32,586 bases of DNA from a bacterium (lineage in GTDB: Bacteria; Omnitrophota; Gorgyraeia; Zapsychrales; Fredricksoniimonadaceae): positions 1-32,586 of the forward strand of contig JAJXTI010000005.1 of the NCBI GenBank assembly GCA_021783915.1, written 5' to 3'. Of this stretch, positions 7,211 to 31,698 are shown one piece after another. The translations under genes and the position numbers were made by a program. Numbering within the stretch: the first letter of the stretch is position 1; each line of letters begins with the position of its first letter. Below the pieces are notes generated by a model. That model saw nothing but the letters and a program-made list of their open reading frames with translations. It made no database searches and was not told the DNA's origin.

Positions 7211-8395
7211 ATGGTTTCCGTTTACCAAGCTGAACACATTATTTTAAATAATGTCAGGCTCTTGGATTGTCAGACCATTCCCTTATCCCAAGCCTACGGC
7301 CGTTTGCTGCGTGAAGATATCCGCAATGACCGTGACCAGCCGCCTTTTGATAAAGCCCTTGCGGACGGCATAGCTATTCATATCAGCAGCTACGACAAGG
7401 GTTTAAGGGAATTTCCTATAGAAAAAACTATCACCGCAGGAGACAAACCTTATCAGTTAAAGAATATAAACCATTGTGTGCGTATTATGACCGGCTCCGT
7501 GCTCCCAAATGGTTGTAACGCTATCGTACCCATTGAACAAGTTGCCATTGATGCGGACACGGCGGGACTAAAGGGGTGGACATTAGTCAAATTAAAACAA
7601 AATATACGTTTTAAATCCAGTGATAGTAAGAATCGACAATTGCTCATTAAAGAACCTTGCCAACTGCTGACACCGCAAATCGGTATTTTAGCGGCTGTAG
7701 GTAAAACCAAGGTCAAGGTCAGTGTACAGCCTAACATCGCCGTTATTTCTACGGGAGACGAACTTGTAGATGTCGATAAACAACCAAAAACTTATCAAAC
7801 CAGGCTTTCCAATAGTTACGCTCTTAAGGCCCTGCTTGAAGGTAGCGGGTTGGCCAGGGGGACCCTTTTCCATTACTCTGACAATAAAAAGGCCCTTATT
7901 AAAGGCCTTGCTAAAAATTTGGAAGATTTTGATATGCTTATATTAAGTGGCGGAGTGTCCATGGGGGAATTCGACTATGTGCCGGAAGCCCTGAAACAAT
8001 TAGGTGTTAAAGCGCTTTTCCATAAAGTCGCCCAAAAACCAGGCAGACCTTTTTGGTTTGGCAAAACCAGAAAAGGTAAGGTGGTGTTCGCATTACCTGG
8101 AAACCCCGTCTCAACCCAAATTTGCGCTTACAGGTATGTTATCCCTTTTTTGAAGAAAGCGGCTGGATTCAAGTTAACCCAGGAGCACACGTTTTTATCT
8201 CACGGGACAGAAAAGACGGAAGATCTGACATTATTTCTACCGGTAAGCACCAATGAAAAAAACGGGGTTCGTTATGCTGAGGTTGTAGCTATGGGAGGAT
8301 CTGGAGATTTTGCCGCACTGGCCAAAGCTGACGGATTTATCGAATATGACCAAAATCAAAAATCTTTATGGCCTTATTTTAGCTGGCGGGTCTAG
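7211..8395 (+). CDS. moeA: Molybdopterin molybdenumtransferase
   Basis: 'ISTGDELV', 'LSGGVSMGEFDYV', 'KVAQKPGRPFWFGK', 'VFALPGNPVST'. Confidence 0.95.
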   Translation: MVSVYQAEHIILNNVRLLDCQTIPLSQAYGRLLREDIRNDRDQPPFDKALADGIAIHISSYDKGLREFPIEKTITAGDKPYQLKNINHCVRIMTGSVLPNGCNAIVPIEQVAIDADTAGLKGWTLVKLKQNIRFKSSDSKNRQLLIKEPCQLLTPQIGILAAVGKTKVKVSVQPNIAVISTGDELVDVDKQPKTYQTRLSNSYALKALLEGSGLARGTLFHYSDNKKALIKGLAKNLEDFDMLILSGGVSMGEFDYVPEALKQLGVKALFHKVAQKPGRPFWFGKTRKGKVVFALPGNPVSTQICAYRYVIPFLKKAAGFKLTQEHTFLSHGTEKTEDLTLFLPVSTNEKNGVRYAEVVAMGGSGDFAALAKADGFIEYDQNQKSLWPYFSWRV

Positions 8396-8975
8396 CAAAC
8401 GCATGGGGCAGGACAAGACCCTCATGGATTATCATGGCAAGCCACAAATTGAACATGTCCATAACCTGCTTGAAGTCCATTGTACCAAAGTTTTTTTATC
8501 CAAACGGGCAGACCAAAAAGCTCACAAAGGGGTCCTCTCAATTGATGATGACCAAAGTTTCCTTAATATAGGCCCTTTAGGGGGGATTCTGTCTGCCATG
8601 AAAACTTGCCCTGAAAGTTCGTGGCTGGTGATGGCCTGTGATTTACCTTTTGTGACCCAAGAAACTTTGGGATTTCTTATTCAAAATCGTGATCCTCAAA
8701 AAATAGCCACAGCTTTTAGAAGCGTCCATGATGGTTTACCTGAACCTTTATGCGCTATTTGGGAAGGACCCGGATATCCTGAAATTCTTGGATTTTTTAA
8801 AAAAAATGTCCATTGTCCCCGGAAAGTCCTTATTAATAGTAATACAAAATTGCTGGAACAAGAAGACCCAAGGTGGTTGGACAATGTCAATGACCAAACG
8901 GAATTCAAACAGGCCATAAACCATTTTAAAAAAGGAAATATTTATGTTGAATATTTTGACACCACTGCACCCTAA
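8346..8975 (+). CDS. mobA: Molybdenum cofactor guanylyltransferase
   Basis: 'GLILAGGSSKRMGQDKTLMDYHGKP', 'GPLGGILSAM', 'VMACDLPFV'. Start set to ATG 8346 (MTKIKNLYGLILAGG), overlapping moeA. Confidence 0.92.
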   Translation: MTKIKNLYGLILAGGSSKRMGQDKTLMDYHGKPQIEHVHNLLEVHCTKVFLSKRADQKAHKGVLSIDDDQSFLNIGPLGGILSAMKTCPESSWLVMACDLPFVTQETLGFLIQNRDPQKIATAFRSVHDGLPEPLCAIWEGPGYPEILGFFKKNVHCPRKVLINSNTKLLEQEDPRWLDNVNDQTEFKQAINHFKKGNIYVEYFDTTAP

Positions 8976-9369
8976 ATTGGTCCATTTTCCCATTGCTCTT
9001 TTGACTACGGCGTTTCTCTTCGAAGTTTTAAGCCGTTTGTTTAAAAAAGACCTGCTTTCGCAAGCGGCCATACTCATCTATTGTTTTGCCGCTGTTTTTA
9101 CCCCTGTAGTTGTTTATAGCGGGCTTTTAGAACAAGCCAGGCTCCATTTGCATCATCCTGTTTTGACCCACCATAAAACTTTTGCGCTTTTGACCATGTG
9201 GATTTCCTTGGTTTCTTTACCGGTCCTTGGGTTGTTCAACAAGATATTTCCTAAGGCCTTTAGAAATTTCTTTCTTATTCTGTTGTCCATCCTTGTGGTA
9301 ACAGTCACAATAACAGCCTACTACGGAGGTGAAATGGTATACGAGTATTCCGTAGGAGTCAGCTCATAA
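8944..9369 (+). CDS. DUF2231-like integral membrane protein
   Basis: 'LHPKLVHFPIALL' at the N-terminus, four hydrophobic segments, and terminal 'YYGGEMVYEYSVGV' characteristic of DUF2231. Confidence 0.8.
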   Translation: MLNILTPLHPKLVHFPIALLTTAFLFEVLSRLFKKDLLSQAAILIYCFAAVFTPVVVYSGLLEQARLHLHHPVLTHHKTFALLTMWISLVSLPVLGLFNKIFPKAFRNFFLILLSILVVTVTITAYYGGEMVYEYSVGVSS

Positions 9370-9420
9370 TCCATTAACTTCTATTGCCAGCTAACCTGGT
9401 TTTTGATATATTTTATCATT

Positions 9421-10479
9421 ATGTTAGTTATCGGATTAAACCATAAAACAGCCCCCATAGAAGTACGTGAAAAATTTTTTTTAAACCCCAACCAACAAGA
9501 CCTGTTGCTTTTGGAACTTAAGAACCATCCGCTGGTCAGTGAAGCCTTTGTGCTGTCCACCTGTAACCGCATTGAAATTTACTTAAAAAAAACGGATAAA
9601 GCCATTGACTGCGGTTTTGTGGTTGGTTTAATCGCGAAAGTCAAAAAGACTCCTATTGAGGCCGATCTTAAGCAGCATTTGTACTGCCATGAGGAAAAAG
9701 AAGCCATCGAACACCTTTTAAGGGTGGCTGCCGGATTAGATTCATTGGTCTTGGGGGAAAAACAAATCTTGGGCCAACTCAAGACCTCGGTGGATCGTTC
9801 AAGGGAACTGGGGTTCTTGTCTAAATATTTTAATGTTCTTACTAATATCGCCATTCGAACAGGCAAAAAGGCGCAGACAGAAACAGATATCAGTTACGGA
9901 GGTTCTTCCGTCAGCTGGGCCGCCATCGAGATGGCCCAACAAACCCTGGGGACTTTGGAAGGGAAATCCGTGCTTGTTATCGGTGCCGGTAAGATGGGGA
10001 AGCTGGCTTTAAGCAACTTGCATAACCATTTAGTGTCAAAAATTTATTTAATGAACCGTACGGGTGAAAAAGCAGAAAATTTGGCCCAACAATATGAGGG
10101 CATCGCCGCTTCCTTTTGGGACATTAAAGAAATCTTGTCAGAGGTGGATGTGTGTTTTTGTTCCGTTGGGGCGCCCCACTATATTTTAGACCAGGAAAAA
10201 ATCAGCCAAATCATGAAACTTCGTGAAGGCCGCAGATTAGTGCTTATCGACATTTCCATGCCGCGCAACATTGACCCTGCCGTTGGCCAACTGTCCGGTG
10301 TGCATTTAAGTTCCATTGATGCCCTCGATGGTGTCGTACAGGCCAATATGAAAAAACGTCAGGAAGCCATTGTTCAAGTAGAAGCCATCATCTCCCAAAA
10401 AATGGATGAATTTGTTCAGAAATGGGAGAAACTCCAATCCTTAAATGATTCAGATTTCTTTAAAGCAGCTCAAATTTAA
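9421..10479 (+). CDS. hemA: Glutamyl-tRNA reductase
   Basis: 'MLVIGLNHKTAPIEVREKF', 'VLSTCNRIEIYL', 'LDSLVLGEKQILGQLK', 'VLVIGAGKMGKLA'. Start refined to ATG 9421. Confidence 0.97.
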   Translation: MLVIGLNHKTAPIEVREKFFLNPNQQDLLLLELKNHPLVSEAFVLSTCNRIEIYLKKTDKAIDCGFVVGLIAKVKKTPIEADLKQHLYCHEEKEAIEHLLRVAAGLDSLVLGEKQILGQLKTSVDRSRELGFLSKYFNVLTNIAIRTGKKAQTETDISYGGSSVSWAAIEMAQQTLGTLEGKSVLVIGAGKMGKLALSNLHNHLVSKIYLMNRTGEKAENLAQQYEGIAASFWDIKEILSEVDVCFCSVGAPHYILDQEKISQIMKLREGRRLVLIDISMPRNIDPAVGQLSGVHLSSIDALDGVVQANMKKRQEAIVQVEAIISQKMDEFVQKWEKLQSLNDSDFFKAAQI

Positions 10480-10482
10480 CTT

Positions 10483-11763
10483 ATGTTTTTTCCTTTTATC
10501 AGCATTTCCATTATTTTCCTGGCAGGTTTTTGGGGTGGTATTTATCGTGCCCGTCAGACCAAATTTTCCCCGCAATGGTTCCTAGGATTGCGCATCCCGT
10601 TGTTGGTTTTAATGCTGGTTTTCTTAATGTATCCGGTGGCCTGGTATTGGATCATAGCCCAACTTTTGACTTTATGCTCGGGGCAGACCCTGGGAGGACT
10701 TTTTCAAAAAAATAAACTGACTATCCAAGACATCGAAAAAATAGAGCGTATCGGTGACCTGCAATTGCCCAAACTTTTACCTGAAAAGATCAAAGATGAA
10801 GACATCGCCGTTGTCCTCATGAACATGGGCGGGCCTGTTGACCTTGATGAGGTGGAGCCATTCTTAAGAAGGTTGTTTAACGATTCATTGATCATTCGTT
10901 TTCCTTTTGCCCAATCATTGTTTGCTAACATGTTGGTCCGAGCAAGGCTTAAAGAAGTCAAGGAACGTTATAAGCTTATCGGTGGGGGGAGCCCTCTTTT
11001 GGCCTCTTCACTTCAACAAGTTGGGGCCCTGGACGGCGAACTTAAAAAACGCGGCCGAAAATTGGATCTTTTTTTGTCTTTTAACTACTCTGCCCCCTTG
11101 CCAGAGGGCACAATCGCACAAATAAAACAAAAAGGGAAAAAATTTATTTTACCTTTGAGCCTTTATCCCCATTATTCATTTTCAACCACAGCTTCCAACA
11201 TTTTTTATCTTAAACAGGCATCTCGGGCCAAGCACCCTCAAGCCATTTTTTTGGAAAGTTATTCTTACCATCTTTACGATGGTTACATCCAGGCTTTTGT
11301 GGACCGCATTAAAGAGGCCCTTAAACCAAACGAAGAATTGGATGATTTTTATTTGCTTTTTTCAGCCCACGGCACTCCTTTGTACTTTGTGCAGGAAGGC
11401 GATGCTTACTCATATTTGGTCTCCCAGTCCATCGGCAGTATTTTGGCCAACCTTAAACGTAAGCACAACTGGAGTGTTTGTTATCAAAGTGCGGTTGGGC
11501 CATTGGTGTGGCTAAAACCGTCAACGGAAGCGGCCATTAAGGCTTTGGGGGGGCGCGGGGCCAAAAAAACTATTGTCATACCTATTTCTTTTATCACAGA
11601 CCATATTGAAACGCTCTGTGAAATTGACATTGAATACCGCCATCTGGCCCAAAAGCATGGCATTGAAGATTTTCGTATGAGCAAAGCCATTGAATGCCAT
11701 CCGGGATTTATTTCATCTTTAGCAGATTGCATTGAGGGTTCTTTACGAACGGCAAGATTTTAA
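10483..11763 (+). CDS. hemH: Ferrochelatase with N-terminal multi-TM extension
   Basis: Residues ~1-75 very hydrophobic (MFFPFISISIIFLAGFWGG... LLVLMLVFLMYPVAWYWIIAQLLTL), then 'AVVLMNMGGPVDLDEVEPFLRRLFND', 'GGGSPL', 'LFSAHGTPLYFV', 'YQSAVGPLVWLKP', 'VIPISFITDHIETLCEIDIEY'. Confidence 0.94.
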   Translation: MFFPFISISIIFLAGFWGGIYRARQTKFSPQWFLGLRIPLLVLMLVFLMYPVAWYWIIAQLLTLCSGQTLGGLFQKNKLTIQDIEKIERIGDLQLPKLLPEKIKDEDIAVVLMNMGGPVDLDEVEPFLRRLFNDSLIIRFPFAQSLFANMLVRARLKEVKERYKLIGGGSPLLASSLQQVGALDGELKKRGRKLDLFLSFNYSAPLPEGTIAQIKQKGKKFILPLSLYPHYSFSTTASNIFYLKQASRAKHPQAIFLESYSYHLYDGYIQAFVDRIKEALKPNEELDDFYLLFSAHGTPLYFVQEGDAYSYLVSQSIGSILANLKRKHNWSVCYQSAVGPLVWLKPSTEAAIKALGGRGAKKTIVIPISFITDHIETLCEIDIEYRHLAQKHGIEDFRMSKAIECHPGFISSLADCIEGSLRTARF

Positions 11764-11773
11764 AGGGGGAGCC

Positions 11774-12091
11774 ATGTTAGATAAAATTGTTCTTGCAGCT
11801 TATGGTGTTTTTTTATTGGTGGGAGGATACTTTGGGTTTAAGAAGGGCAGTATGGTCTCTTTGGCCATGGGGACAGGTTCCGGCCTTATAGTTTTCTTAG
11901 GGCTATGGCTCATGACGATTAACCCCGCAGGCGCATGGATTTTTTTAAGCTGTGTTTCAGGTTTTTTGACATCAACATTCCTTCTGAGGACCATCAAGAC
12001 CCAGGCGTTCATGCCATCAGGCATGCTATTAATCATTTCTTTATTGGTCTTGGTTTTTTGTCTGGCCCATTTATCCCAAATTTCGCATTAG
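11774..12091 (+). CDS. TMEM14-family small membrane protein
   Basis: 105 aa, ~4 hydrophobic segments; 'GYFGFKKGSMVSLAMGTGSGL' and 'FMPSGMLLIISLLVLV' resemble TMEM14 'GYxKxGSxxSLxxGxxxGxL' and 'FMPAGLxxxxSLLMV'. SD 'aaggggga' before ATG 11774. Confidence 0.82.
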   Translation: MLDKIVLAAYGVFLLVGGYFGFKKGSMVSLAMGTGSGLIVFLGLWLMTINPAGAWIFLSCVSGFLTSTFLLRTIKTQAFMPSGMLLIISLLVLVFCLAHLSQISH

Positions 12092-12127
12092 GAGATGCAA
12101 TACGAAATTAAGGGATTACCCCCAGGT

Positions 12128-12169
12128 TGATTTAATCCCTGAATTAAAATCTAATAAGGGATTAAATCA
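12128..12169 (+). promoter_or_regulatory. Perfect 13-bp inverted repeat with 16-nt loop (hairpin; possible attenuator/terminator-like element)
   Basis: tgatttaatccct (12128-12140) ... agggattaaatca (12157-12169); a further agggatta at 12111-12118 could compete for pairing with the left arm. Confidence 0.6.
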
Positions 12170-12223
12170 GTGGGCCCCTAGGGTGAATTTTGTAACAGTA
12201 AAATCCTGGTTTAAAATAAAATT

Positions 12224-12382
12224 ATGAACTATTACGCGGCTTTTGGGATCGTATTTTTGTTTTTTGGCGGCCTTTTTTTGGATCAAAAATTCCATACAGG
12301 CTATTTTTGGGCCTTTACCGGTATTGTCCTGGGTATTATCTATGTGATTTATGAGATTTGGAAAAGCATGCATAATCATTAA
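12224..12382 (+). CDS. Small AtpZ/AtpI-like membrane protein (F1Fo ATPase-associated), missing from the supplied ORF track
   Basis: Manual translation: MNYYAAFGIVFLFFGGLFLDQKFHTGYFWAFTGIVLGIIYVIYEIWKSMHNH*. Two TM segments around 'GLFLDQKFHTGYFWAFTGIVLGI', the AtpZ-like pattern; immediately upstream of atpB. Confidence 0.75.
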   Translation: MNYYAAFGIVFLFFGGLFLDQKFHTGYFWAFTGIVLGIIYVIYEIWKSMHNH

Positions 12383-12410
12383 CCGTTAATTCTTCTTGCA
12401 CAAGCAAATT

Positions 12411-12438
12411 TTGTCGTCTATGATATCCGCAATATAAT
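12411..12438 (+). promoter_or_regulatory. Candidate sigma70-type promoter for the atp operon
   Basis: TTGTCG (12411-12416), 16-nt spacer, TATAAT (12433-12438), ~25 nt before the atpB ATG. Confidence 0.45.
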
Positions 12439-12462
12439 AAATATATATTTTTTATATTATCA

Positions 12463-13236
12463 ATGAATGAATCTTTTCATACTTTTAAATTAGATCAATA
12501 CATCTTGCACCATGTCATGGATTCTCATGAATGGCATTTACCTTTTGTCCCTCCAATCCATTTGCCTCCGTATCTAAGCGTCCATGGCCTTATGGTCATC
12601 CTGTGCGCGATAATTTTATTGGTCCTTTTCTGTGGGTTTTACCGTAAAGAAGAACGCGTACCTACAGGGTTGACCAATTTATTAGAGGCCTTTGTGCAAT
12701 TTATCAGGGATGAAATCGCCACTCCCTCTTTGGGGGAAGAGGAAGGGGAAAGGTTGACCCCCTTACTATGCACTTTTTTCTTCTTTATTTTAGGGCTTAA
12801 CCTTCTGGGACAAATCCCTTTGTTTGCGGTAGCGACCGCTGATATGAGCGTCACCGCCCCTCTGGCCATGGTCACTTTTTATTTAATGACTGCGGACACC
12901 ATCCGTAAAAATGGGATTGGGGGTTTTATTAAAGCATTCATACCTTCAGGGGTGCCTATTTTCGCCTTGGTTCTTATCGTCCCTCTTGAAATCTTGGGAG
13001 TCTTTATTAAAACATTCGCTTTGATGGTCCGTCTTTTTGCCAACATGCTTGCCGGTCACATGGTCATTTTATCTTTGTTGGGTCTGGTTGTCCTGTTTGG
13101 GATATGGGGGGTATTGGCCGTACCTCTGGCTGTAGGCATATCTCTTTTGGAAATTTTGGTGGTTTTTTTACAAGCATATATTTTTGTGCTTTTGTCGGCC
13201 GTGTTTATCGGCCAAATGTATCATCCGGAACATTAA
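12463..13236 (+). CDS. atpB: F1Fo ATP synthase subunit a
   Basis: 'FALMVRLFANMLAGHMVILSLLGLVVLFG' with the essential Arg, and 'LEILVVFLQAYIFVLLSAVFIGQMYHPEH'. Confidence 0.96.
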   Translation: MNESFHTFKLDQYILHHVMDSHEWHLPFVPPIHLPPYLSVHGLMVILCAIILLVLFCGFYRKEERVPTGLTNLLEAFVQFIRDEIATPSLGEEEGERLTPLLCTFFFFILGLNLLGQIPLFAVATADMSVTAPLAMVTFYLMTADTIRKNGIGGFIKAFIPSGVPIFALVLIVPLEILGVFIKTFALMVRLFANMLAGHMVILSLLGLVVLFGIWGVLAVPLAVGISLLEILVVFLQAYIFVLLSAVFIGQMYHPEH

Positions 13237-13264
13237 AACAACTTAAAACGAAAGGAAATACATT

Positions 13265-13501
13265 ATGCAACCTTTAGACATTGCCCATTTGGGAAGGATT
13301 TTTGTCGGTGTTGGTTTCGGCCTGTGCTCGATCGGTGCCGGTATCGGGGTCGGCCAAATCGTGGCCGCTGCTTTGAACGGCATGGCCCGCCAACCCGAAC
13401 AGGCCGGTAAAATCCAAACAGTCATGTTTATCGGCGCGGCTTTAGTGGAAGGGGTCGCTTTATTGTGTGCAGTATTTTGTTTTATGGCCCTTCAATCCTA
13501 A
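13265..13501 (+). CDS. atpE: F1Fo ATP synthase subunit c
   Basis: 'GAGIGVGQIVAAALNGMARQPEQAGKIQTVMFIGAALVEGVALLCAVFCF': RQP loop and carboxylate in TM2. Confidence 0.96.
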   Translation: MQPLDIAHLGRIFVGVGFGLCSIGAGIGVGQIVAAALNGMARQPEQAGKIQTVMFIGAALVEGVALLCAVFCFMALQS

Positions 13502-13519
13502 ATTTAACAGGGAATCTCT

Positions 13520-14044
13520 ATGGAAAACACAGCTATGGAACATAGCACCTCCGGTCCTGGGGCCAACCTTTTGACACCAGAAACACTGATGGTCATATTG
13601 ACCTGGGTGACATTTTTTATCCTTCTTTTCATCTTGCAGAAATATGCCTTTAAGCCGCTTATGGCAAACATGCGCAACCGGGAAAAGGACATTCGAGAGG
13701 CCTTGGAAAACGCGGATAAAGCCAAGGCGCAATTGGCCCAAATTGAAGAAGAAAAGCAAAAGGTCCTTAATGAAGCAAAGACCCAGGCCACCCAAATCAT
13801 TGACCAGGGCCGTAAAACAGCCAGGGATCTGGCCGCGGACATAGAGGCCAAAAGCCGCCAGCACGCGCAGCAAATCATGCAGAGCGCCCATGAAGAAATA
13901 ATAGCCGAGAAGCAAAGGCTTTTAAAGACCTTGCGTCAGGAAAGCGCCGAAGTAGCCATTTCTTTGGCCGGGAAAATCATTCAAGAGAACATGGACCAGG
14001 AAAAGAACCGACGTTTGGTCCAGGAAGCCATCGATCAATTATGA
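13520..14044 (+). CDS. atpF: F1Fo ATP synthase subunit b
   Basis: N-terminal TM then long charged helix 'KPLMANMRNREKDIREALENADKAKAQLAQIEEEK'; position in operon. Confidence 0.93.
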   Translation: MENTAMEHSTSGPGANLLTPETLMVILTWVTFFILLFILQKYAFKPLMANMRNREKDIREALENADKAKAQLAQIEEEKQKVLNEAKTQATQIIDQGRKTARDLAADIEAKSRQHAQQIMQSAHEEIIAEKQRLLKTLRQESAEVAISLAGKIIQENMDQEKNRRLVQEAIDQL

Positions 14045-14577
14045 GCCAGACCGAAACCGCACATCGTTACGCCAAGGCGTTGTTTGCCTTATCCGAGGAG
14101 GAAGATTCTTTATATCCTGTTTATATCTCTTTCCAGGAAATAGGCGCCATTTTAAAAGAAAGGAATGAATTAAAGGTCTTTATCCAAAATCCTTTATTTT
14201 CCAGGGAAGAACGCGCTCCCATCCTACAGCGGACATTTGACGGTAAAGTACCGAAACTTCTTTTAAAATTCTTTATGTTTTTAAATGAAAAGAACCGTTT
14301 GAATATTTTAGGCCATATCTGTGAAAGTTTTGATGAACTTTACCTGGAAAAGAACAACCAGATGAAAGGCGCCTTAGAGACATCTTTTTCTTTGCAGGAA
14401 GACCAGAAACAGGGCATCCAACAAAAGTTACACCGTAACTTCCAGAAGGAAGTTTTCTTAGACTGCCAAATTAAACCTGAACTTTTAGGTGGTTTTCGCC
14501 TATTGGTGGCAGGGATGTTATTTGACGGCAGTGTTAAAAGTCGACTGGAACAATTCAGACAAAAAGTATCAGCATAA
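14041..14577 (+). CDS. atpH: F1Fo ATP synthase subunit delta
   Basis: 'RYAKALFALSEEE' N-terminus, 'FMFLNEKNRLNIL', 'KPELLGGFRLLVAGMLFDGSVKSRLEQFRQKV'; ATGA overlap with atpF. Confidence 0.95.
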   Translation: MSQTETAHRYAKALFALSEEEDSLYPVYISFQEIGAILKERNELKVFIQNPLFSREERAPILQRTFDGKVPKLLLKFFMFLNEKNRLNILGHICESFDELYLEKNNQMKGALETSFSLQEDQKQGIQQKLHRNFQKEVFLDCQIKPELLGGFRLLVAGMLFDGSVKSRLEQFRQKVSA

Positions 14578-14589
14578 AAAAGGCTAGGT

Positions 14590-16104
14590 ATGACACAACA
14601 CTTAAATCCTGATGAAATTACAACAATCCTAAAAAAAGAATTGGCCGCATTCGATAATAAAATCCAGACGTATGAAATCGGTACTGTTCTTAACGTGGGG
14701 GACGGTATTGCCCGTGTCCATGGGCTCAATAATGTCATGTCGGGAGAGCTGGTTGAGTTTAGCAACGGTGTCCAGGGTATGGCGCTCAATTTGGAACAGG
14801 ACAATGTGGGCGTGGCCATTTTCGGGATCGACAGCGACATTAAAGAAGGTGACGAAGTCAAACGAACAGGCAAAATCGCCTCTGTACCCGCGGGGGACGC
14901 TCTTTTGGGACGTATCGTCGATGGCTTGGGTAATGCTATCGATGGTAAAGGCACTCTGGTAACTAAAGACCTGCGTCAAATTGAACTGAAAGCCCCAGGA
15001 ATTATCGAACGTAAAAACGTCCATGAACCCATGCAAACGGGGATTAAAGTTATCGACGCTTTAACACCCATTGGCCGGGGACAGCGTGAACTTATTATCG
15101 GGGATAGAAAAACCGGCAAGACCACTCTGGCCATTGACGCCATCATTAACCAAAAAGGGCAAAGCGTTTATTGTTTTTACGTGGCCATCGGTCAAAAGCG
15201 TTCGACGGTCGTCGGTGTCTACGAAAAATTGCGCAAATACGGTGCCATGGAATACACAACCATTGTGGCGGCGACCGCTTCTGACCCGGCCCCCATGCAA
15301 TTTCTGGCCGCTTACTCGGCCACGGCCATGGCCGAGCATTACCGTGATAGCGGACGTCATGCCCTGATTATTTATGATGATTTGACCAAACAGGCCCAGG
15401 CGTACCGTCAATTGTCCTTGCTTTTACGCCGCCCACCGGGCCGCGAAGCTTATCCGGGGGACATTTTTTATTTGCATTCACGCCTTCTGGAACGTGCAGC
15501 CAAGCTTAGCGACAAGAGGGGGGCCGGCAGTTTGACGGCTTTGCCTATCATTGAAACACAGGCCGGGGACGTGTCCGCTTATATCCCGACCAACGTCATT
15601 TCGATCACAGACGGCCAAATTTTCCTGGAGGCCGACCTTTTTAACGCGGGCCAGCGTCCGGCCATCAATCCGGGTATTTCAGTATCGCGCGTTGGTGGTG
15701 ACGCCCAAGTCAAGGCCATGAAACAAACGGCGGGGTCTTTACGTCTGGAGCTGGCCCAATACCGTGAGTTGGCGGCGTTTTCACAATTTGCCTCGGACCT
15801 GGACGCGGCCACTAAAAAACAACTTGAACGCGGCCGAAGGCTTATGGAGATCATCAAACAAGGCATTCAATTGCCACTGCCTGTTGTCAAACAGGTCGCC
15901 ATTATTTTTGCCGGAGTGAACGGTTATTTGGATGATATCCCGGTAAACAGAATCAAAGAGTTTGAAGAGTACTTACATGTCCAATTAGACAACAAATATT
16001 CTGATTTTGTCAAACTGTTTAACAAGACTTTAGTCATGACGGATGAAATCAAGGCCGTCCTTAAAGAATTATTGGAAGAAGTCAAGTCCACATTCCAAAC
16101 ATGA
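14590..16104 (+). CDS. atpA: F1Fo ATP synthase subunit alpha
   Basis: '[18 protein letters not shown]' P-loop, '[50 protein letters not shown]'. Confidence 0.98.
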
Positions 16105-16970
16105 TAAGCATAAAAGAGTATAATAAAAAAATCGTATCATTAAAAAACACGTGCAAAATGACTAAGACCATGAAAATGGTCTCAGCCAGCAAGTTCAAGC
16201 GCGCTTATAAAGCCCAGGCCAATTCCCTGGACTACGCTTTCAGGTTGCAGGAGCTCATCTCACGCCTGTCCTTGGCCAGTGGGCAGAGCAACCACCCATT
16301 AATCCGGCACAAAAAACTGCCTGGCAAGGTTCTTGTGATCCTTTTTACTTCTGATAAAGGCCTTTGCGGAGGGTTCAACAATAACTTGATCCGTAAATTA
16401 CGGAACTGGCTTAAAGAGAACCATTATAAATACCACCATATTTCCATGGGTTTTTGCGGCCGCCGTGGGTACATGGCTTTTCGTAAATCCCAGGATGTCG
16501 TGAAATATTATGAAGAGGTCACTTTGAAACCGAATTTTCCGGACGCACAGAAGATCGCCGATGATTTGTCCAATTTTTATTTAATAGGTGAGTATGATGA
16601 AGTGTATTTGGCTTACAACCATTTCAACGGCCCGTTGTCGCAGACGCCCATGATTGAAAAATTCTTACCTTTGGATCCTGCGGCCTTATTAAAAGGGGCC
16701 AAGCCTCAAAAGGCCGATTACCACTATGAGCCGGACCAGGGGGAACTGATAAGTTTTTTGATCCCTAAATTTATTAACTTTAAGGTGTTCTTTACGCTTT
16801 TGGAAAACTCAGCTGGTGAACATGGGGCACGCATGTCAGCCATGGACAAAGCGTCCCAGAATACGGCGGAATTGATTGACCGCTACACGCTTTTACGTAA
16901 CCGTGCCCGGCAGGCTTCGATCACCAAAGAACTTATTGAAATTATTTCAGGGGCGGAAACATTAAAATAA
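16101..16970 (+). CDS. atpG: F1Fo ATP synthase subunit gamma
   Basis: '[17 protein letters not shown]', '[15 protein letters not shown]', C-terminal '[52 protein letters not shown]'. Confidence 0.96.
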
Positions 16971-18386
<1,416 letters not shown>

Positions 18387-23253: not shown

Positions 23254-24113
23254 GGGTTTTCTTTAATGAATAGATAATTGATCGTCACCGCCGTGATGAT
23301 AAAAATATTAATGGCCGTGCTCACCAGGATGCTCAAGGCAATGACCCACACCTGGATGCCCGGCACGGTCAAGGACCCCAAAAAGACCATGTTGTCGCGC
23401 AGCAACAAGACCGGGACGTAAAGCAAATTCGGGACAAGCACCAAAACCAAGGTCAACCAAAAAGAAGCGAACAGGAACTTAAAATTACCAAACAACGCCT
23501 TAAATATTTTTTTTTGTTCCAGGACTATGATAGGGGCCATATAAATGAGCAAGGCCGTGATGAACACGCTAAATATAAGTTGCATATACGGTACCCCTAA
23601 AACGACTAATTTCTTTATCCAAAAGTAAATACCGCTGGTGGAATGTATCTTAAGGGCACGTTGAAAAACCAGGCCGTAGGCGGAATTCAACCCTTGAAAC
23701 AAAGCAAGAGACAATATGGCAGATAAAACAATATGGATGTAGCTTGATGAACATTTCCGCAGTGATTTTTTTAAATTAACGGTCTCTTCATTATTAATCC
23801 CGGCAACCATGTGTGCGGTAACGCCAAGCAAAAAGCTCCCTATAAACAAATAAATGCATAATTGCGCGTAATAAAATGTTTTCGGAAGGAGCAACAAATC
23901 CATGGGGTAATGCGCATACACTTCCCCCCAAATGTGGCTGACGATAGGGGCAAAAAAAACGGACAATGGATATTGCGGTGAAAAATAAAGGATTTCAAGG
24001 GCCAAAAGATTTATAAAGACAAGGAGAATAAAGGGATAAAAAAGCTGCTTATTGGCTTTGAAAATATTAAAAGAGGAGCGTAAAAGCGTGAATGGCGGGC
24101 TTAATTTAGGCAT
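23250..24113 (-). CDS. Polytopic membrane protein of unknown function
   Basis: 287 aa with about six hydrophobic stretches; ATGA overlap with the TPR gene. Confidence 0.75.
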   Translation of the reverse strand: MPKLSPPFTLLRSSFNIFKANKQLFYPFILLVFINLLALEILYFSPQYPLSVFFAPIVSHIWGEVYAHYPMDLLLLPKTFYYAQLCIYLFIGSFLLGVTAHMVAGINNEETVNLKKSLRKCSSSYIHIVLSAILSLALFQGLNSAYGLVFQRALKIHSTSGIYFWIKKLVVLGVPYMQLIFSVFITALLIYMAPIIVLEQKKIFKALFGNFKFLFASFWLTLVLVLVPNLLYVPVLLLRDNMVFLGSLTVPGIQVWVIALSILVSTAINIFIITAVTINYLFIKENP

Positions 24114-24394
24114 AGCTTACGTCGCAAGGTCAAAACTCCCATGCCCAGTAAACCGATACCAAACAAACTTATTGTCACTGGCTCCGGGACAGGGGCCACC
24201 GCTGATCCCGCCTTTCCGGGTTTAGCACCATCTATGAGAAACATATAATCATTGTAATCTTCATCGGATTTCTTGCCGTTGTGGCTGGGGTCAAAAGAAT
24301 CCGCGGCCAAGGGGGACGCATACGATCCATCTGCCCAGGCCGCGGGAATTCCAAATAAAAATAATGCTGTTAACATTGAAAATGTTTTATTCAT
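24101..24394 (-). CDS. Very small PEP-CTERM sorting-domain protein (97 aa)
   Basis: Signal peptide 'MNKTFSMLTALFLFGIPAAWA' and C-terminal 'VPEPVTISLFGIGLLGMGVLTLRRK'; contains 'DEDYNDYMFLIDG'. Confidence 0.88.
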   Translation of the reverse strand: MNKTFSMLTALFLFGIPAAWADGSYASPLAADSFDPSHNGKKSDEDYNDYMFLIDGAKPGKAGSAVAPVPEPVTISLFGIGLLGMGVLTLRRKLCLN

Positions 24395-24412: not shown

Positions 24413-25240
24413 TTACGCCAAGACCATTTTACGGCGAAGGCCAAATGCCGCGATCCCCATCAACCCTAAGGTAAATAAAGCCAAGGTCATCGGTTCAGGG
24501 ACAGGAACAACACGGTCGACCACATACATCATGTCGTTATAATCCTGGTCGCTGTAGACGCCATTATGGTTTAACTGCTGGTCTTCCCAGGCCAGTAAAT
24601 AAGGATCCTGATAAGTATATTGTTTAAGTTTGAGTGTTTGTGTGTCTTGAATCCAAACGGTCTTCCCCGCTAAGGGAGTTAAATGATAGACCAGCAAGTG
24701 ATCAATGTGGTCCCAGTTACTGGCAGGATTGGAATCCCATACATTGGAAGTATGACCAACGCTATTAAGGCTCCAACCAAATGAAGTCCCTGTCGCAAAA
24801 GGCACCGCGGCCCCGGGAAATGGATGGGTTGATGTGCCGTCACCGACAAAACCAAAACCGGAAAAAGAACCGCCAAAGATATCGACCTTTGTAGCAGGGG
24901 TAGCGGTATTATACACTTCCAGTGTATTGGCGTTTGCCGCGCTTAACCCGACCAAAGCGGCCCCGCCATGATCAGAAGCACCGACATTTTCCCAAACACT
25001 TGTCGGCCCCGTATATTCAAGAGGGTCAACAGCGGCATTACTGCCATAGGACGAGCCCAATAATAAATTAATGGCATTATAAACATCAGGCACATGATTT
25101 GAAGGTGTCCCCGTTTGGTGCGGAGTAGGGATACCTCCCACTCTAGGCAATGAAGCCGTGTAGGGTCCGTTGGCCCAAGCTGCAGTATTCATAGCTGCTA
25201 GCAGCATTACTGCGAAAATGGTTAATAGTATTTTTTTCAT
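24413..25240 (-). CDS. PEP-CTERM sorting-domain protein with DUF4114-like 'DQDYND' segment
   Basis: Signal peptide, C-terminal 'VPEPMTLALFTLGLMGIAAFGLRRKMVLA', 'AWEDQQLNHNGVYSDQDYNDMMYVVD'; SD 'gggggag'. Confidence 0.9.
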   Translation of the reverse strand: MKKILLTIFAVMLLAAMNTAAWANGPYTASLPRVGGIPTPHQTGTPSNHVPDVYNAINLLLGSSYGSNAAVDPLEYTGPTSVWENVGASDHGGAALVGLSAANANTLEVYNTATPATKVDIFGGSFSGFGFVGDGTSTHPFPGAAVPFATGTSFGWSLNSVGHTSNVWDSNPASNWDHIDHLLVYHLTPLAGKTVWIQDTQTLKLKQYTYQDPYLLAWEDQQLNHNGVYSDQDYNDMMYVVDRVVPVPEPMTLALFTLGLMGIAAFGLRRKMVLA

Positions 25241-25291: not shown

Positions 25292-26152
25292 TTATTTAGC
25301 TCCTGCTCCTGTAAAAACAACAAGGACAGTCCTTCCTAAAATCGTCAGGTCTGTCCAAAAACACATTTTTTTAATGTAAAGAAGGTCGTATTTGATTTTT
25401 ATACGGACATCATTGATGTTTTCATCATAACGGTGGCACACCTGGGCCAGTCCGGTGATACCGGGTTTGATGTCCAGGCGTTTGGGATAATCAGTGATTT
25501 GCCGCTTGAATTGCTCCACGAACACCGGGCGTTCCGGGCGCGGGCCTATGACGCTCATGTCCCCTTTGATCACATTGATAAATTGCGGGATTTCATCGAT
25601 ATGGGCCTTGCGCATGAATTTCCCGGCAGGGATAAGCCGGTTGTCATTCTTGGCCGCCCACACAGGGCCGGTCTCTTTTTCCGCGTCGACCTTCATGGTG
25701 CGGAATTTGTAAATAAGAAAATGCTTGCCGTTTTTCCCGACCCTGACCTGGGAATAAAAAACCGGACCTTTGGAGGTCGCCTTAATTAAGATGACCGCCA
25801 GAAGCATCAGCGGTGAAAGCGCGACCAGGCCCAGGGCCGCGCAAAAAACATCAATGGCGCGTTTGGCCAAGGCGTAAGTCCTGCGGAAAAAGCTCAAAAG
25901 CATGCTTACCAGTCCGCTGCCGAACAAAGCCAGGCTGGTCGGTTCAGGGATGCTGGATTTGACCGGATGCGCCCCGGAAAAAAGAAAACTCTGGGAAATT
26001 TGGCGGTCACTGTCGTCAGGTTTAATAAATTCCGACGATGACCAGGCCCTGGAAAGAAAAAATACGCACAATGGGCAGGCGAAAAACAGGACAAATAATT
26101 TTCTTTTTGAAAAACGCATATGTTTTTTTGAGTTTGGAGTCTGTGCTGTCAA
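25292..26152 (-). CDS. Undecaprenyl-phosphate sugar phosphotransferase (bacterial sugar transferase family) with N-terminal signal peptide and internal PEP-CTERM-like segment
   Basis: C-terminal 'AKRAIDVFCAALGLVALSPLMLLAVILIKATSKGPVFYSQVRVGKNGKHFLIYKFRTM...MRKAHIDEIPQFINVIKGDMSVIGPRPERPVFV'. N-terminal 'KRKLFVLFFACPLCVFFLSRAWS' then 'SIPEPTSLALFGSGLVSMLLSFFRR'. Confidence 0.92.
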   Translation of the reverse strand: MTAQTPNSKKHMRFSKRKLFVLFFACPLCVFFLSRAWSSSEFIKPDDSDRQISQSFLFSGAHPVKSSIPEPTSLALFGSGLVSMLLSFFRRTYALAKRAIDVFCAALGLVALSPLMLLAVILIKATSKGPVFYSQVRVGKNGKHFLIYKFRTMKVDAEKETGPVWAAKNDNRLIPAGKFMRKAHIDEIPQFINVIKGDMSVIGPRPERPVFVEQFKRQITDYPKRLDIKPGITGLAQVCHRYDENINDVRIKIKYDLLYIKKMCFWTDLTILGRTVLVVFTGAGAK

Positions 26153-26402: not shown

Positions 26403-27041
26403 TTATGGTAAGTATGTAAACAATTCCCGCGTAATGAGATCGGTAAATGTTTTTATTCTTTGGGAGGCTTTCTCAGTGTTTCCCGTAGTTATATCAGTAG
26501 AAATACGGACTAAAGCGCTGCTTGTTTTTTTGCCAAGCAGTGTGTTAAACGCGATCAATATTTGCTGTTTCCAGTAACTGGGGGTAAACCTGTCCCCCAC
26601 CTTGAACCAATAATAGACTACTTGGTTGAAATCCCCTTTGTTTAACCGCAAACAATTGCTCGTAATCAACATGTTCTTGTAGTTTACCTTGATTTTGACA
26701 CGCGGCCTTTCCTGGACCGATATGCCGCTTCCCGTGTAACAAACTTCCGGCGGGTGCGCCACCTTGCGGTTGTCCTGGGAGTAGACAATGTATAAATAAA
26801 CAACGCTTTTGTCAATGGCGTTCGTGTATTTACGGGCGAAAGCGTTGTTGGTCTCCAGGATCGCGAATTCGTCCTTGGTAATGTGCATGTCCACCGATGA
26901 CCATGTCCCTATCGTTTTGGGGAATTTGGTGATGTCCACGGAATCTTCCTCTTTGACCTGGCGGTAGTACAACGACCAGGAAACAATCATGGTCAAGGCC
27001 AGCGTAAGACAAATGATGAGAAAAGGTCTGGGAAGGTTCAT
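26403..27041 (-). CDS. epsI: EpsI-family exosortase-associated protein
   Basis: 'IGTWSSVDMHITKDEF', 'AHPPEVCYTGSGISVQE', 'VVYYWFKVGDRFTPSYWKQQ'. Start refined to ATG 27041 (MNLPRPFLIICL); the ORF-track start at 27203 overlaps exosortase. Confidence 0.9.
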   Translation of the reverse strand: MNLPRPFLIICLTLALTMIVSWSLYYRQVKEEDSVDITKFPKTIGTWSSVDMHITKDEFAILETNNAFARKYTNAIDKSVVYLYIVYSQDNRKVAHPPEVCYTGSGISVQERPRVKIKVNYKNMLITSNCLRLNKGDFNQVVYYWFKVGDRFTPSYWKQQILIAFNTLLGKKTSSALVRISTDITTGNTEKASQRIKTFTDLITRELFTYLP

Positions 27042-27042
27042 T

Positions 27043-27876
27043 TTATTCAAGGGTCTTTCCAACGGTATAAAGCAACAGGAACGCGCAGGCGAAAACGATA
27101 AACCCGGAAAGCTCGTGCAGGGGCCCCGAGGCGTAATGGGACCCCCAAATTTCATTGACAGCAGCCAGAAAAATGATCCGCACGACATTGGCCATGACCG
27201 CAATCGGGACAGAAAACAGGAACAAAATGATTTTATTGGCCCTTGAGGACTTCATCCAGTAGGCGAAAAGGCTCCCTAAGGCCATCAAGGCAATCAACGA
27301 ACGCAGCCCGCTGCAGACATCATCCACCACCACATAGGCGTGGCGCATGATGATCGCGCTGCCGTCCTGGATGCACACGATCCGCATATTGTTCAACAGG
27401 ACCACGGCCATATGGGCGGCGAACATTTTCAATTTAAAACTGATGTTGGCCACGAGTACCAGGGGCAGGGGCACCATAAAGGCCAAAAAGGACAACGGAA
27501 ACAGGATCTCTTTGAGCGTTTTTGTCCCATAAAAATACAAGGCCAGTCCGAACAGGACAATAATAAGGGAAAACCCGGAGGTAAAATATACCCTGAAAAA
27601 AGCGCTCAAGAGGTGGACCCCAATGCCTAAAAAAAACAGCCTCATCCCCCATTTTGAAGGTTGCGGCTTGATCGCTTTTAAAACATCTTTTTTCAGCCAG
27701 ATCAAATACAGCGTGACAAAGGGGACCAGGATACCGTGGCTGTAATAGGAGTCACGGGCGAACCAACGCTCCCACATCCATATAAAAGTAGGCAGATAGA
27801 TGAGCAGAATGAATGCACCGGCAATGGCCACTTGGTGGGATTTTTTTATGGGTCCTGCTGCCTGGCTTTTTGCCAT
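27043..27876 (-). CDS. xrt: Exosortase
   Basis: Polytopic; catalytic-type motifs 'VDDVCSGLRSL' (Cys), 'MANVVRI' (Arg), 'LHELSGF' (His). Confidence 0.93.
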   Translation of the reverse strand: MAKSQAAGPIKKSHQVAIAGAFILLIYLPTFIWMWERWFARDSYYSHGILVPFVTLYLIWLKKDVLKAIKPQPSKWGMRLFFLGIGVHLLSAFFRVYFTSGFSLIIVLFGLALYFYGTKTLKEILFPLSFLAFMVPLPLVLVANISFKLKMFAAHMAVVLLNNMRIVCIQDGSAIIMRHAYVVVDDVCSGLRSLIALMALGSLFAYWMKSSRANKIILFLFSVPIAVMANVVRIIFLAAVNEIWGSHYASGPLHELSGFIVFACAFLLLYTVGKTLE

Positions 27877-29009
27877 GTAATTTCCTGTTTGGCGTTAATA
27901 AAACGGTAAAACCCTGTCAATGCCGAAAAATTGAGAAGACAAAACACGTATGGACAATAGCAAATCTTCGCAATGGCTGTAAAGATACCACACTTTTGGT
28001 CCCTTGACAAGGCCCCTGCAACGGCTGCCGCGTAAAAACACAATTGCGCACTAAAAAAGACCGGATAGGCGCGGCCCTCATCAAGGACAAAAAAATTGAT
28101 TGGTATCAAAAGTATCATCAAAAAAGGAACGATGACCCTAAGGAGTTTATGGGAAAAAAGCTGGATGGCCACAGGGCTCCTTAAGGGGTTAAACAGGCCG
28201 GGAAAAAGAAAAAATATCTGGTAATTGCCGTAAAGGGTCCTGGCCTTGCGCCGGTGCTCTTCCCTGGCTGAACACGCGGCCTGGTCATGTGCGTGGGCCG
28301 TACCGTCAAAAACGGCCCTGTGGCCTTTTTGAATGATTTTTAAAGGGGTGAACATATCGTCCAAAACGACATCCGCAGGGCCCGGTGTGAACAGCTCTTT
28401 ACGGATGGCATAAATGGCGCCCGTGGCCCCCAGCATGGAATGGATCCGGCTTTCACAGCCGCGTATAAATTTTTCATATTCCCAATACGCGTTGACCCCC
28501 TTGGCTGTGCCGCCCCCTTGTTCATGGGAAAAAATGAGTTCCCCGCTGGCGCACCCGACGCGAGGGTCGGCGAAATTGCGGACCAATTCTTTAAGCGCAT
28601 CTTTTTCCAGGACCTGGCGCGCGTCGTTAAAAAGGATGATTTCCCCCCGGGAGCGCGCCACCAGCTCATTGACGGTCAGCATTTTTCCCCGCCTTTGGCC
28701 ATGGGCCAGCAAACATACGCGCGTATCTTTATAGTTTTGGATAATTTCATTCGTCCTGTCCGTGGAGCCGTCTGAACCAACCAGGATTTCCATTTTTTGC
28801 GGCGGGTAGTCCAGGGAAAGCAAATTGTCGATTTTACGGGCGATGACGTCCTCTTCGTTGTACGCGGAAATGACGACGGACACCATGGGGACGAAGTCCC
28901 CTTTACGCACAGGCCTGGAAAAGAGCTTGGACACAAGGGCAATCAACAAAGGATAGCCCAGGTAACAATAAACAATCAAAAATAAAAAGACCCAAAAAAT
29001 AATTTTCAT
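27846..29009 (-). CDS. Family 2 glycosyltransferase, membrane-associated
   Basis: 'MVSVVISAYNEEDVIARKIDNLLSLDYPPQKMEILVGSDGSTDRTNEII', 'GEIILFNDARQVLEKDAL', C-terminal TM helices. Confidence 0.92.
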   Translation of the reverse strand: MKIIFWVFLFLIVYCYLGYPLLIALVSKLFSRPVRKGDFVPMVSVVISAYNEEDVIARKIDNLLSLDYPPQKMEILVGSDGSTDRTNEIIQNYKDTRVCLLAHGQRRGKMLTVNELVARSRGEIILFNDARQVLEKDALKELVRNFADPRVGCASGELIFSHEQGGGTAKGVNAYWEYEKFIRGCESRIHSMLGATGAIYAIRKELFTPGPADVVLDDMFTPLKIIQKGHRAVFDGTAHAHDQAACSAREEHRRKARTLYGNYQIFFLFPGLFNPLRSPVAIQLFSHKLLRVIVPFLMILLIPINFFVLDEGRAYPVFFSAQLCFYAAAVAGALSRDQKCGIFTAIAKICYCPYVFCLLNFSALTGFYRFINAKQEITWQKARQQDP

Positions 29010-29740
29010 CGCAATATTTTAATCAGGACCTTTCGCATGTAATTATACCCGTCCCCCCCCAGGATTGTTTTGGCCGATTTCTTAAAAAAATTACCGACGA
29101 TTTCATTAAGGGGGGTTTCCCCCATCAATGCTTGTTGAAAACGCCTTAAAGACCAATTGCCTTTGACGGCCACGCGCGCTATGCAAGGGGACTTGATGTG
29201 GTAAGGCCTTTCAGAAATAAAAACATTCTTGTACCCTTGCGCATAGGCCATTTGAATGATTTTATCGTTACAAAACCCCCTGGGGACGGACAGGTCATTG
29301 ATGGGAACGCCTAAATTGGCCTCGAGGGTCATTTTAGAGGCCTTTAACTCCTGCTTGATTTGATCATCGGTCAACCCGGTCAAGATTTCATGGGTCAGGC
29401 CGTGGGAGCCCACCTTCATCCCTGCCTGGATGAGCTTTCTGATTTCTTCCCATCCCAGGTACCCTTGGGCCCCCACCCTTTTGACAATAATAAAGAAAAT
29501 GGCCGTTAATTGGAGTTCTTTTAAAATGGGCAGGGCGATTTCATAGTTGTTCATTTCCCCATCATCGAATGTGATGATCGCCCGGTCATTTTGCCTTTTC
29601 AATAGTTCCATTTGCGCGCAAAAGTCCCCGGCCTTGACGTCGTAAATGTCGGCCCCTTCTTCCCGTCTTTCAGGTGAAACGGACAAGGCGGAAACAATCC
29701 CGTGGTACATGAGGACTTTCAACGGCCTATCTCCTTCCAC
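29006..29740 (-). CDS. Polysaccharide deacetylase-family protein
   Basis: 'LKVLMYHGIV', 'AIITFDDGEMNNYEIALPILKELQLTAIFFI', 'KVGSHGLTHEILTGL' (NodB homology motifs). Confidence 0.92.
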   Translation of the reverse strand: MEGDRPLKVLMYHGIVSALSVSPERREEGADIYDVKAGDFCAQMELLKRQNDRAIITFDDGEMNNYEIALPILKELQLTAIFFIIVKRVGAQGYLGWEEIRKLIQAGMKVGSHGLTHEILTGLTDDQIKQELKASKMTLEANLGVPINDLSVPRGFCNDKIIQMAYAQGYKNVFISERPYHIKSPCIARVAVKGNWSLRRFQQALMGETPLNEIVGNFFKKSAKTILGGDGYNYMRKVLIKILR

Positions 29741-30834
29741 GCGATGGGTTTAACGGCCACAGTTGATGTACTGGCCCCGGTCAATTGTTCAAAACCGGGG
29801 GGATAAAGGTCATTGGTGGTCATGTCCGCGTAATTGAATATTTTTGTCGACCATATCTCTCCCAGCACAACACCGCCGTCGGCGATGACGCCGCCGTTGG
29901 TCACCGAAGGGTATTTTATATTGTCGAATGTGGCCACCCCGTGGGTATAAATCAACCCCCGGTAGGTACTGGGCGCGCTGACAGTTTCATTGTACCCGCC
30001 CCACGCGATGATGTTTAACTGCGAATTGGGGGCCTGGTCCCCGGATTGGTTGAAGGTCACCGTGCCGCTGGCAATGATGGTCACGTTTTGCCCCGACTTG
30101 ACCAGCAAGTTGGAATTGATGGTCACGTTCCCATCGACATAAACTATTTGTTTGCCATCGACAGAGTCCGCAGACAATGTGTAGTTGTTGTCCTGGACAT
30201 GGAGCACCTGGTCCGGCGGGTAACCGGAAACCATCTGGCCCATGTTGTTGGTGAAATTTTCCAGCGACCTGTCGTCAAAATTTTGCGAATTATTGAAATT
30301 CAACGACGTAAAACTATTGTCCGGGCTTTTCGCTATGTTTTCAAAAAAAACATCGGCGTTTTCGGAAGATCCGTTGACTTCACCGCTTACGAGCGCCTGC
30401 CCGTTGAAGACCGCCGTTGTCCTGTCCCCGTTGATGGAAACATTGCCGCTGGTGGAAAGGACGTTCTTGTAAACTTCCGGGACGCCGGCCAGATAAGTGA
30501 TCCGGATTTTCCTTTGGGTGCCCCCGTAAGTGCCGGTTGAATAGATGGAGCGAAAAGCGGGCCTTGAATCATCTTTGCTTAAATAAATTGTCCCGTTGCC
30601 GTAAGTGATTTGCCTGGAGGGCGTGTTATCGAGCATGGTAGGGTCTTTCATATACATGTTGGCCCCCGCCTCCGCCAGCCAAAACGCGGCCGTTGAATGG
30701 TAATACCTGCGGGTGTCATTGATCTCGCTGGAGCACACCAAAGCGAAGCCGGTGGACAACAAGATAATGATATACAAAATTATCGTGGAAACAAGAAGAA
30801 GAGAGCCTTTTTTATTTAATTTTTTCATCGGCAC
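29719..30834 (-). CDS. PilX-like pilus assembly/minor pseudopilin protein
   Basis: 'MKKLNKKGSLLLVSTIILYIIILLSTGFALVCSSEINDTRRYYHSTAAFWLAEAGANMYM' is PilX-N like; no Glu at +5; beta-rich remainder. Confidence 0.78.
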   Translation of the reverse strand: MPMKKLNKKGSLLLVSTIILYIIILLSTGFALVCSSEINDTRRYYHSTAAFWLAEAGANMYMKDPTMLDNTPSRQITYGNGTIYLSKDDSRPAFRSIYSTGTYGGTQRKIRITYLAGVPEVYKNVLSTSGNVSINGDRTTAVFNGQALVSGEVNGSSENADVFFENIAKSPDNSFTSLNFNNSQNFDDRSLENFTNNMGQMVSGYPPDQVLHVQDNNYTLSADSVDGKQIVYVDGNVTINSNLLVKSGQNVTIIASGTVTFNQSGDQAPNSQLNIIAWGGYNETVSAPSTYRGLIYTHGVATFDNIKYPSVTNGGVIADGGVVLGEIWSTKIFNYADMTTNDLYPPGFEQLTGASTSTVAVKPIAWKEIGR

Positions 30835-31318
30835 TTTGGGCGAACAACCCGGTCCTGGACCTTAACGCCACCTTTTCCTCCAAACTGTAATCTTTATTTG
30901 CTCCGGCGCTGACTTTAATGATGATTTCATTGTTGATGGGCTCCGTGAAAGAAAGCCCCGTGATGCCGCCTGCCAGGGCCCTGCGGTTTGAGTCATTGGT
31001 CCTGATGATCTTCCCCGCGTCCTTGCCGGTGTCAGTCCATGAATATTGGACCTCACCGTAATCAGGCCGTTGAAAGGTCAACCGGGTGCCGTGGCCGTCT
31101 TTGACGATAAAAAGACCGTCGGCCTCACGCAATTCAGTGACCATGGACACCAGGGCCCGGCGCAATTGCTGTTTTGGTTCGATGCTCTTCCAATTAACAT
31201 CCCACGAGCGTTGGGCCACAACCAAGGCCGTGTAAACGGCCTCCAAAATGACCGTAAAAACCGCCAAAGTGACCAACACCTCCACCAGGGTAAACGCTTT
31301 TGGCCGTGTTTTCTTCAT
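30812..31318 (-). CDS. Type IV prepilin-like protein (PilW/GspJ-like)
   Basis: 'MKKTRPKAFTLVEVLVTLAVFTVILEAVYTALV'; start refined to ATG 31318 (ORF track 31372). Confidence 0.85.
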   Translation of the reverse strand: MKKTRPKAFTLVEVLVTLAVFTVILEAVYTALVVAQRSWDVNWKSIEPKQQLRRALVSMVTELREADGLFIVKDGHGTRLTFQRPDYGEVQYSWTDTGKDAGKIIRTNDSNRRALAGGITGLSFTEPINNEIIIKVSAGANKDYSLEEKVALRSRTGLFAQSADEKIK

Positions 31319-31698
31319 TTTGTCAACCCCGTCTCCAAAGTGATACTGTTTGCGCCGGCCCTGCTTTGCCACTGCACCTGGACCTTGATGTCCAACGGGT
31401 CCACCATCTGGTTGGCGTAAACAACAAGGACTTTTTCCCGGGGCAGGGTCTTAAGGCCCTTGTCCTTGGCCCATTTGTCCCAATCGGTCGCGATAATATC
31501 AGGAAGGGTCTGCGTGTTTTGCATTTCTTCAAGGACATTTTCCGCGTGCGAAACGGCGACGGTGGTCTCCCAGGACGATTGGGTCGCCTGCATTAAATTC
31601 ACATACAATAAAAGGATGCCGCATATCCCGATCAAGAGGATATAAGCGCAAACAAGCACTTCAACAAGGGTGAACGCTTTGGGTGATTTTAAAACCAT
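31315..31698 (-). CDS. Type IV prepilin-like protein (PilV/GspI-like)
   Basis: 'MVLKSPKAFTLVEVLVCAYILLIGICGILLLYVNLMQATQ' prepilin N-terminus. Confidence 0.85.
   Translation of the reverse strand: MVLKSPKAFTLVEVLVCAYILLIGICGILLLYVNLMQATQSSWETTVAVSHAENVLEEMQNTQTLPDIIATDWDKWAKDKGLKTLPREKVLVVYANQMVDPLDIKVQVQWQSRAGANSITLETGLTK

Follow-up and report, generated by a model that had tools for sequence, protein, structure and literature searches.

An internal PEP-CTERM module in the sugar transferase of an exosortase locus from Omnitrophota

The stretch of DNA analyzed here, referred to below as the window, comprises 32,586 nt of contig JAJXTI010000005.1 from a bacterium of the phylum Omnitrophota (assembly GCA_021783915.1). 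Its minus strand carries a gene in which a predicted signal peptide, a spacer (the stub) and a PEP-CTERM segment precede the catalytic domain of a monotopic phosphoglycosyl transferase (PGT). We favor, with a probability of about 0.6, a reading in which this internal segment acts as a recognition signal by which the PGT docks at the exosortase of the same locus, to be probably cleaved by it. The arrangement suggests that initiation of a sugar chain and protein sorting are physically coupled.

Organization of the fused gene

The minus-strand frame between 25292 and 26152 is unbroken, as the initial annotation had reported. Its first codon, a TTG at 26152, would yield a protein of 286 aa; however, homologs begin at an in-frame ATG at 26119, which is the likely start (275 aa) and from which residues are numbered here. 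The putative signal peptide, recognized by inspection and by conservation, has a hydrophobic core and a conserved A-W-A box of the signal peptidase type. The segment running from SIPEP to FFRR is encoded at 25880-25954; the annotation had it begin at the same place and end 3 nt short (~25880-25951). It shows, in this order, the PEP triplet, the hydrophobic helix and the basic cluster that define PEP-CTERM, but the PEP begins at residue 58 of 275 and is followed by a 190-residue enzyme, so that the motif is not C-terminal. An assembly error or a frameshift join is ruled out because the gene is open in the same frame in at least 50 independent genomes. A broken copy occurs at L215:7578-8468 (G029:C107), where an in-frame stop interrupts the fused gene and the PEP portion is intact.

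The bacterial sugar transferase profile (PF02397) matches with an E value of 9e-66, the domain being placed by Pfam at residues 86-269, and D175 and E176 are invariant in 30 aligned members of the fused family. The predicted fold (predicted local distance difference test score, pLDDT, 74, with low model confidence at the stub and the termini) contains the re-entrant helix and matches PglC (PDB 8g1n, E 4.6e-12) and WbaP. From the positive-inside rule and the description of the PEP-CTERM/exosortase system by Haft et al. (2006; PMC1569441), the PEP is predicted to lie at the interface between periplasm and membrane and the RR pair in the cytoplasm. The same topology would set the catalytic domain in the cytoplasm, exactly where a PGT needs it.

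The internal segment resembles stand-alone PEP-CTERM signals

Library profiles for PEP-CTERM score the fused PGT barely above their cut-offs (PF07589, 20.9 bits against 20.7; TIGR02595, 17.0 against 16). The case therefore leans on conservation, not on any single score. PF07589 is matched individually (E ≤ 0.05) by 28 of the 30 aligned homologs. Related loci supplied about 150 stand-alone PEP-CTERM tails for a profile, with which the fused segment scores 41.4 bits, the median of the stand-alone tails being 46.1. Among 9,000 block-shuffled N-termini used as controls the top score was 13.7 bits; these shuffles, together with recurrence of the segment in homologs, exclude a chance match.

Agreement with the stand-alone tails extends from position 0 to +14 (P-E-P, S/T at +4, L at +7, G at +9, +11 and +14). 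The flanks differ: A at -1 is found in 24 of 30 fused members and 6 of 148 stand-alone tails, S/T at +3 in 27/30 and 30/148, and R/K at -4 in 27/30 and 1/148. The resulting signature, [KR]x[RH]A-PEP-[ST], tells the two kinds of motif apart in both subclades, and members from other families trend alike. Judging from the sequences, these differences may tune cutting or binding.

Conservation and spread of the fusion

Close homologs of the fused PGT were found in 37 of 92 related genomes, at 38 loci (two in G030). One of these (G047/L008) is identical over the compared stretch to a record of Candidatus Omnitrophota bacterium UBA10174 (L032). Reading of the N-termini showed the domain order to be kept in all 38, and the order described in the initial annotation is thus real. 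The PEP is exact in 36 of the 38, the exceptions reading PES (L011) and SEP (L022). A class-wide search added at least 21 fusions in other families, 17 with an exact PEP (L142, L143, L145-L152, L155-L158, L161, L163 and L167) and 4 with PE-x (L144, L153, L168 and L171). In other genomes, 79 PGT loci were read and none showed a similar fusion. In two other phyla, represented by L092 (a Lentisphaerae record; 289 genomes) and L097 (a Nitrospira record; 296 genomes), all matches with E ≤ 1e-22 start past the PEP, in a search that detects homologous fusions only. One genome has a second copy of the fused PGT lacking the PEP (L173, G071:C7), besides a PEP-bearing copy next to its exosortase.

Conservation, given as the mean share of the most frequent residue among the 30 aligned members, varies sharply along the protein. 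It is 32% in the signal peptide core and 84% in the A-W-A box, 40% in the first ten residues of the stub and 22% in the remainder, 61% in the four residues preceding the PEP, 98% on average in the PEP itself (columns 97-100%), 72% in the helix plus RR and 79% in the enzyme domain. Conservation of the PEP and its flanks, on which the initial annotation had made its proposal depend, is thus a feature of the family; the triplet is conserved to the same degree as the catalytic residues, while the neighboring stub residues vary.

This pattern bears on what an exosortase cut could be for. One proposal is that the stub becomes a functional peptide, which the cut either frees (release of a short peptide was already raised in the initial annotation) or attaches to the cell surface. 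Residues following the signal peptide are indeed somewhat conserved in the window's order (for example LSFVKPxD, within the 40% stretch given above), but the stub ranges from 9 to 64 aa (median 34, with the cleavage site set by a simple motif rule), measures about 12 aa in several members from other families and is for the most part unconserved. We consider release of such a peptide very unlikely because of this variation in length and sequence.

PEP-less relatives in sister lineages

PGTs of two sister lineages (f46 and f23) have the same signal peptide and helix, forming a hairpin, and no PEP. Both lineages retain exosortase and, in most cases, PEP-CTERM proteins; the supposition that the PEP was lost only where exosortase was lost is rejected on this ground. 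At four f23 loci (L178, L179, L212 and L213) the PEP-less PGT occupies the usual place in the order exosortase-EpsI-PGT, and several f23 genomes have two exosortases.

In the PEP-less proteins the helix is still hydrophobic but without PEP-CTERM features. Median PEP-CTERM scores of the helix are -11 in f46, -13 for helices of the exosortases and 18 in PEP-bearing members. The notion that the helix of the PEP-less relatives is a decayed PEP-CTERM is therefore not supported. A tree built on the catalytic domain unites the PEP-bearing proteins in a single group of 54 rows (support 85), with a few losses inside it and f46 outside. As the PEP-less helix scores like ordinary helices, gain and loss are both options at the root: the PEP may have been gained in the 54-row clade or lost in f46.

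The hairpin could also be a plain anchor: an ancient fusion between a PEP-CTERM gene and a PGT gene would have supplied the helix, and the PEP would have no present role. Persistence of PEP-less versions of the same hairpin in exosortase-bearing lineages fits such a relic. Against it stand the conservation of the PEP at the level of catalytic residues beside a variable stub, and the restriction of the special helix to proteins with a PEP. Since the anchoring helix of the relatives does without PEP-CTERM features, a role for the motif as anchor only, the second option of the initial annotation, is disfavored, and we rate it unlikely. The joint retention or loss of PEP and special helix is more easily explained by a recognition signal than by an anchor. 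As far as comparison of sequences can tell, the module is under selection as a recognition signal; it is not obligatory, because f46 and f23 keep exosortase and yet have a PEP-less PGT.

The exosortase locus and co-occurrence

The fused gene lies in a locus whose order (deacetylase, GT2, exosortase, EpsI, fused PGT and at least one stand-alone PEP-CTERM gene) is found in nearly all loci read, the window included. Coordinates are collected in Table 1. Column conservation shows the proposed Cys-Arg-His triad of the exosortase to be unchanged across all 64 aligned relatives. Exosortase is encoded in all 37 fusion genomes of the window's order; of the genomes lacking the fusion, 9 have exosortase and 35 do not (Fisher p 8e-15, a value that ignores kinship). 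Among the 9, the locus of G053 and G076 is at a contig end (L202 and L214), and the exosortase of G003, G018 and G023 branches far outside the fusion group.

Table 1. Features of the fused PGT gene and of the surrounding exosortase locus in the window.
Feature	Position	Strand	Basis
Fused PGT gene: signal peptide, stub, PEP-CTERM, monotopic phosphoglycosyl transferase	25292..26119	-	profiles, homologs
Signal peptide (residues 1-27), predicted to be cleavable; AWS box at 25-27	26039..26119	-	inspection and conservation; cleavage predicted
Periplasmic stub, residues 28-57 (30 aa), variable among homologs	25949..26038	-	homolog alignment
Internal PEP-CTERM module: PEP (P58-E59-P60, 25940-25948), transmembrane helix, R79R80	25880..25948	-	profiles, homologs
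PGT catalytic domain, PglC-like; D175-E176 at 25592-25597; S102-P103 breaks re-entrant helix	25295..25864	-	profile, alignment, fold
EpsI, exosortase-associated protein (TIGR02914, DUF3485)	26403..27083	-	profiles
Exosortase EpsH (PF09721)	27043..27876	-	profiles; triad conservation
GT2 glycosyltransferase	27846..29009	-	profiles, gene order
Polysaccharide deacetylase	29006..29740	-	profiles, gene order
Stand-alone PEP-CTERM protein with DUF4114, ordinary C-terminal PEP-CTERM	24413..25240	-	profiles
Small stand-alone protein (97 aa), C-terminal PEP-CTERM	24101..24394	-	sequence

A small PEP-CTERM lipoprotein (95-138 aa) recurs near the fused PGT or the exosortase in related loci (L144:11453-11743, L145:7513-7815, L147:9462-9830, L149:7157-7561, L153:5227-5565, L182:5631-5975, L185:7496-7801, L208:5485-5841 and about ten more). 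It has a lipobox-like L-x-G-C, a Gly/Ser-rich stretch and an end reading (H)NPEPxSxLLLGSGL plus a basic tail; such a protein would have a lipid anchor at its N-terminus in addition to its exosortase signal. In the window, the positions directly upstream of the deacetylase gene (30812-31372 and 29719-30834) encode a prepilin-type protein (N_methyl) and an unassigned protein. Further away, the plus strand at 764-18386 carries genes for haem biosynthesis (URO-D, GlutR, ferrochelatase), cytochrome c assembly and F-type ATP synthase.

A model for docking and cleavage

The gene would encode the initiating PGT of the exosortase locus, an enzyme that, going by its family and fold, would put sugar-1-phosphate on polyprenyl phosphate at the cytoplasmic face. 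A signal peptide that is probably cleaved would insert the protein with its N-terminus in the periplasm, and the single helix would lead back to the cytoplasm, forming with the preceding PEP what appears to be a true PEP-CTERM module. The exosortase, whose gene lies two places upstream, would recognize this module just as it does any other PEP-CTERM substrate, in an identical geometry. The enzyme that starts a glycan or glycolipid would thus be brought beside the exosortase that processes the neighboring PEP-CTERM proteins. Most likely the exosortase would then cut at the module, so that a short stub is shed and the enzyme stays anchored by its helix. Recognition of the module by exosortase is likely; cleavage of the fused PGT there we consider probable, with less assurance. 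The coupling of sorting to initiation of exopolysaccharide (EPS) synthesis that the initial annotation had suggested remains plausible and is strengthened by gene order and co-occurrence.

Several points weigh against this model. The module is dispensable in f46 and f23; co-occurrence of exosortase and fusion partly reflects shared ancestry of one locus; the four PE-x members from other families read PEA, PEF or PEV; and the motif's own flanks could indicate binding without cutting. The last two points would be expected if the module bound the exosortase as a substrate mimic, the A at -1, the S/T at +3 and basic residues at -2 and -4 making it resistant to cleavage, as would the lack of a conserved product in the stub to release. 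On the other hand, the core from PEP to +14 matches signals of the processed type, and the archaeal sortase ArtA does cleave a central signal (PMC7157517). Docking without cutting is, in our estimate, rather improbable, and docking followed by a probable cut is the reading that we retain.

Relation to known systems

The PEP-CTERM/exosortase (EpsH) system of Haft et al. (2006; PMC1569441) has in common with the present one the motif, helix and basic cluster, an N-terminal signal peptide (here a predicted one) and the association of exosortase with EPS-type genes in one locus; here, in contrast, the motif is internal and followed by a cytoplasmic enzyme. No such fusion is described in the sections consulted of that paper or of papers on exosortase and "sugar transferase". 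A search for work on PEP-CTERM in Omnitroph- taxa found none; an earlier mention of the fusion may exist elsewhere.

A close counterpart is EpsB_2 (TIGR03013), the XrtA/PEP-CTERM glycosyltransferase, likewise a PGT of exosortase loci and of the same catalytic family (E 3e-73). EpsB2 is required for floc formation in Aquincola (PMC9850573). EpsB_2, however, is long (model length 443) and has an N-terminal region of its own, where the fused PGT has a signal peptide and PEP-CTERM; TIGR03013 matches only the catalytic part of the latter, with 247.4 bits against a cut-off of 393.35, and so below the family threshold. Monotopic PGTs of the PglC type (PDB 8g1n, 8e37) and WbaP (8t53) share the catalytic fold, the Asp-Glu dyad and the re-entrant helix but have no PEP-CTERM, and the N-terminal membrane region of WbaP differs from that of the fused PGT.

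A precedent for a mid-protein sorting signal is HVO_0405 of Haloferax volcanii, a domain fusion cut at a central site by ArtA, a sortase of the same superfamily (PMC7157517). HVO_0405 is described as strain-specific and undergoes archaeal processing of the PGF type, whereas the signal of the fused PGT is conserved across many families and joined to the locus's own sugar-lipid enzyme. ArtA also requires, and colocalises with, the lipid-synthesis enzymes PssA and PssD (PMC7157517). By analogy, the module would position the sugar-lipid enzyme next to the exosortase, which would probably then be able to trim the stub.

According to one proposal (PMC7468200), exosortases join their substrates to a sugar compound that the same locus produces, and the fused PGT is how such a coupling would look. 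Whether the PGT, held beside the exosortase by its internal PEP-CTERM, begins the very glycolipid to which PEP-CTERM proteins are attached we put forward as a tentative possibility.

In conclusion, this natural fusion of a sorting signal to an enzyme that initiates a sugar-lipid links both halves of the system, and its conservation makes the sugar-compound proposal testable. The module is kept or lost as a whole, which offers ready-made natural controls. PEP-CTERM need not be C-terminal, and annotation rules that look only at the C-terminus therefore miss internal PEP-CTERM proteins. If the attachment just proposed holds true, the fusion would point to the product of the fused PGT, a sugar-lipid, as the acceptor of the exosortase.
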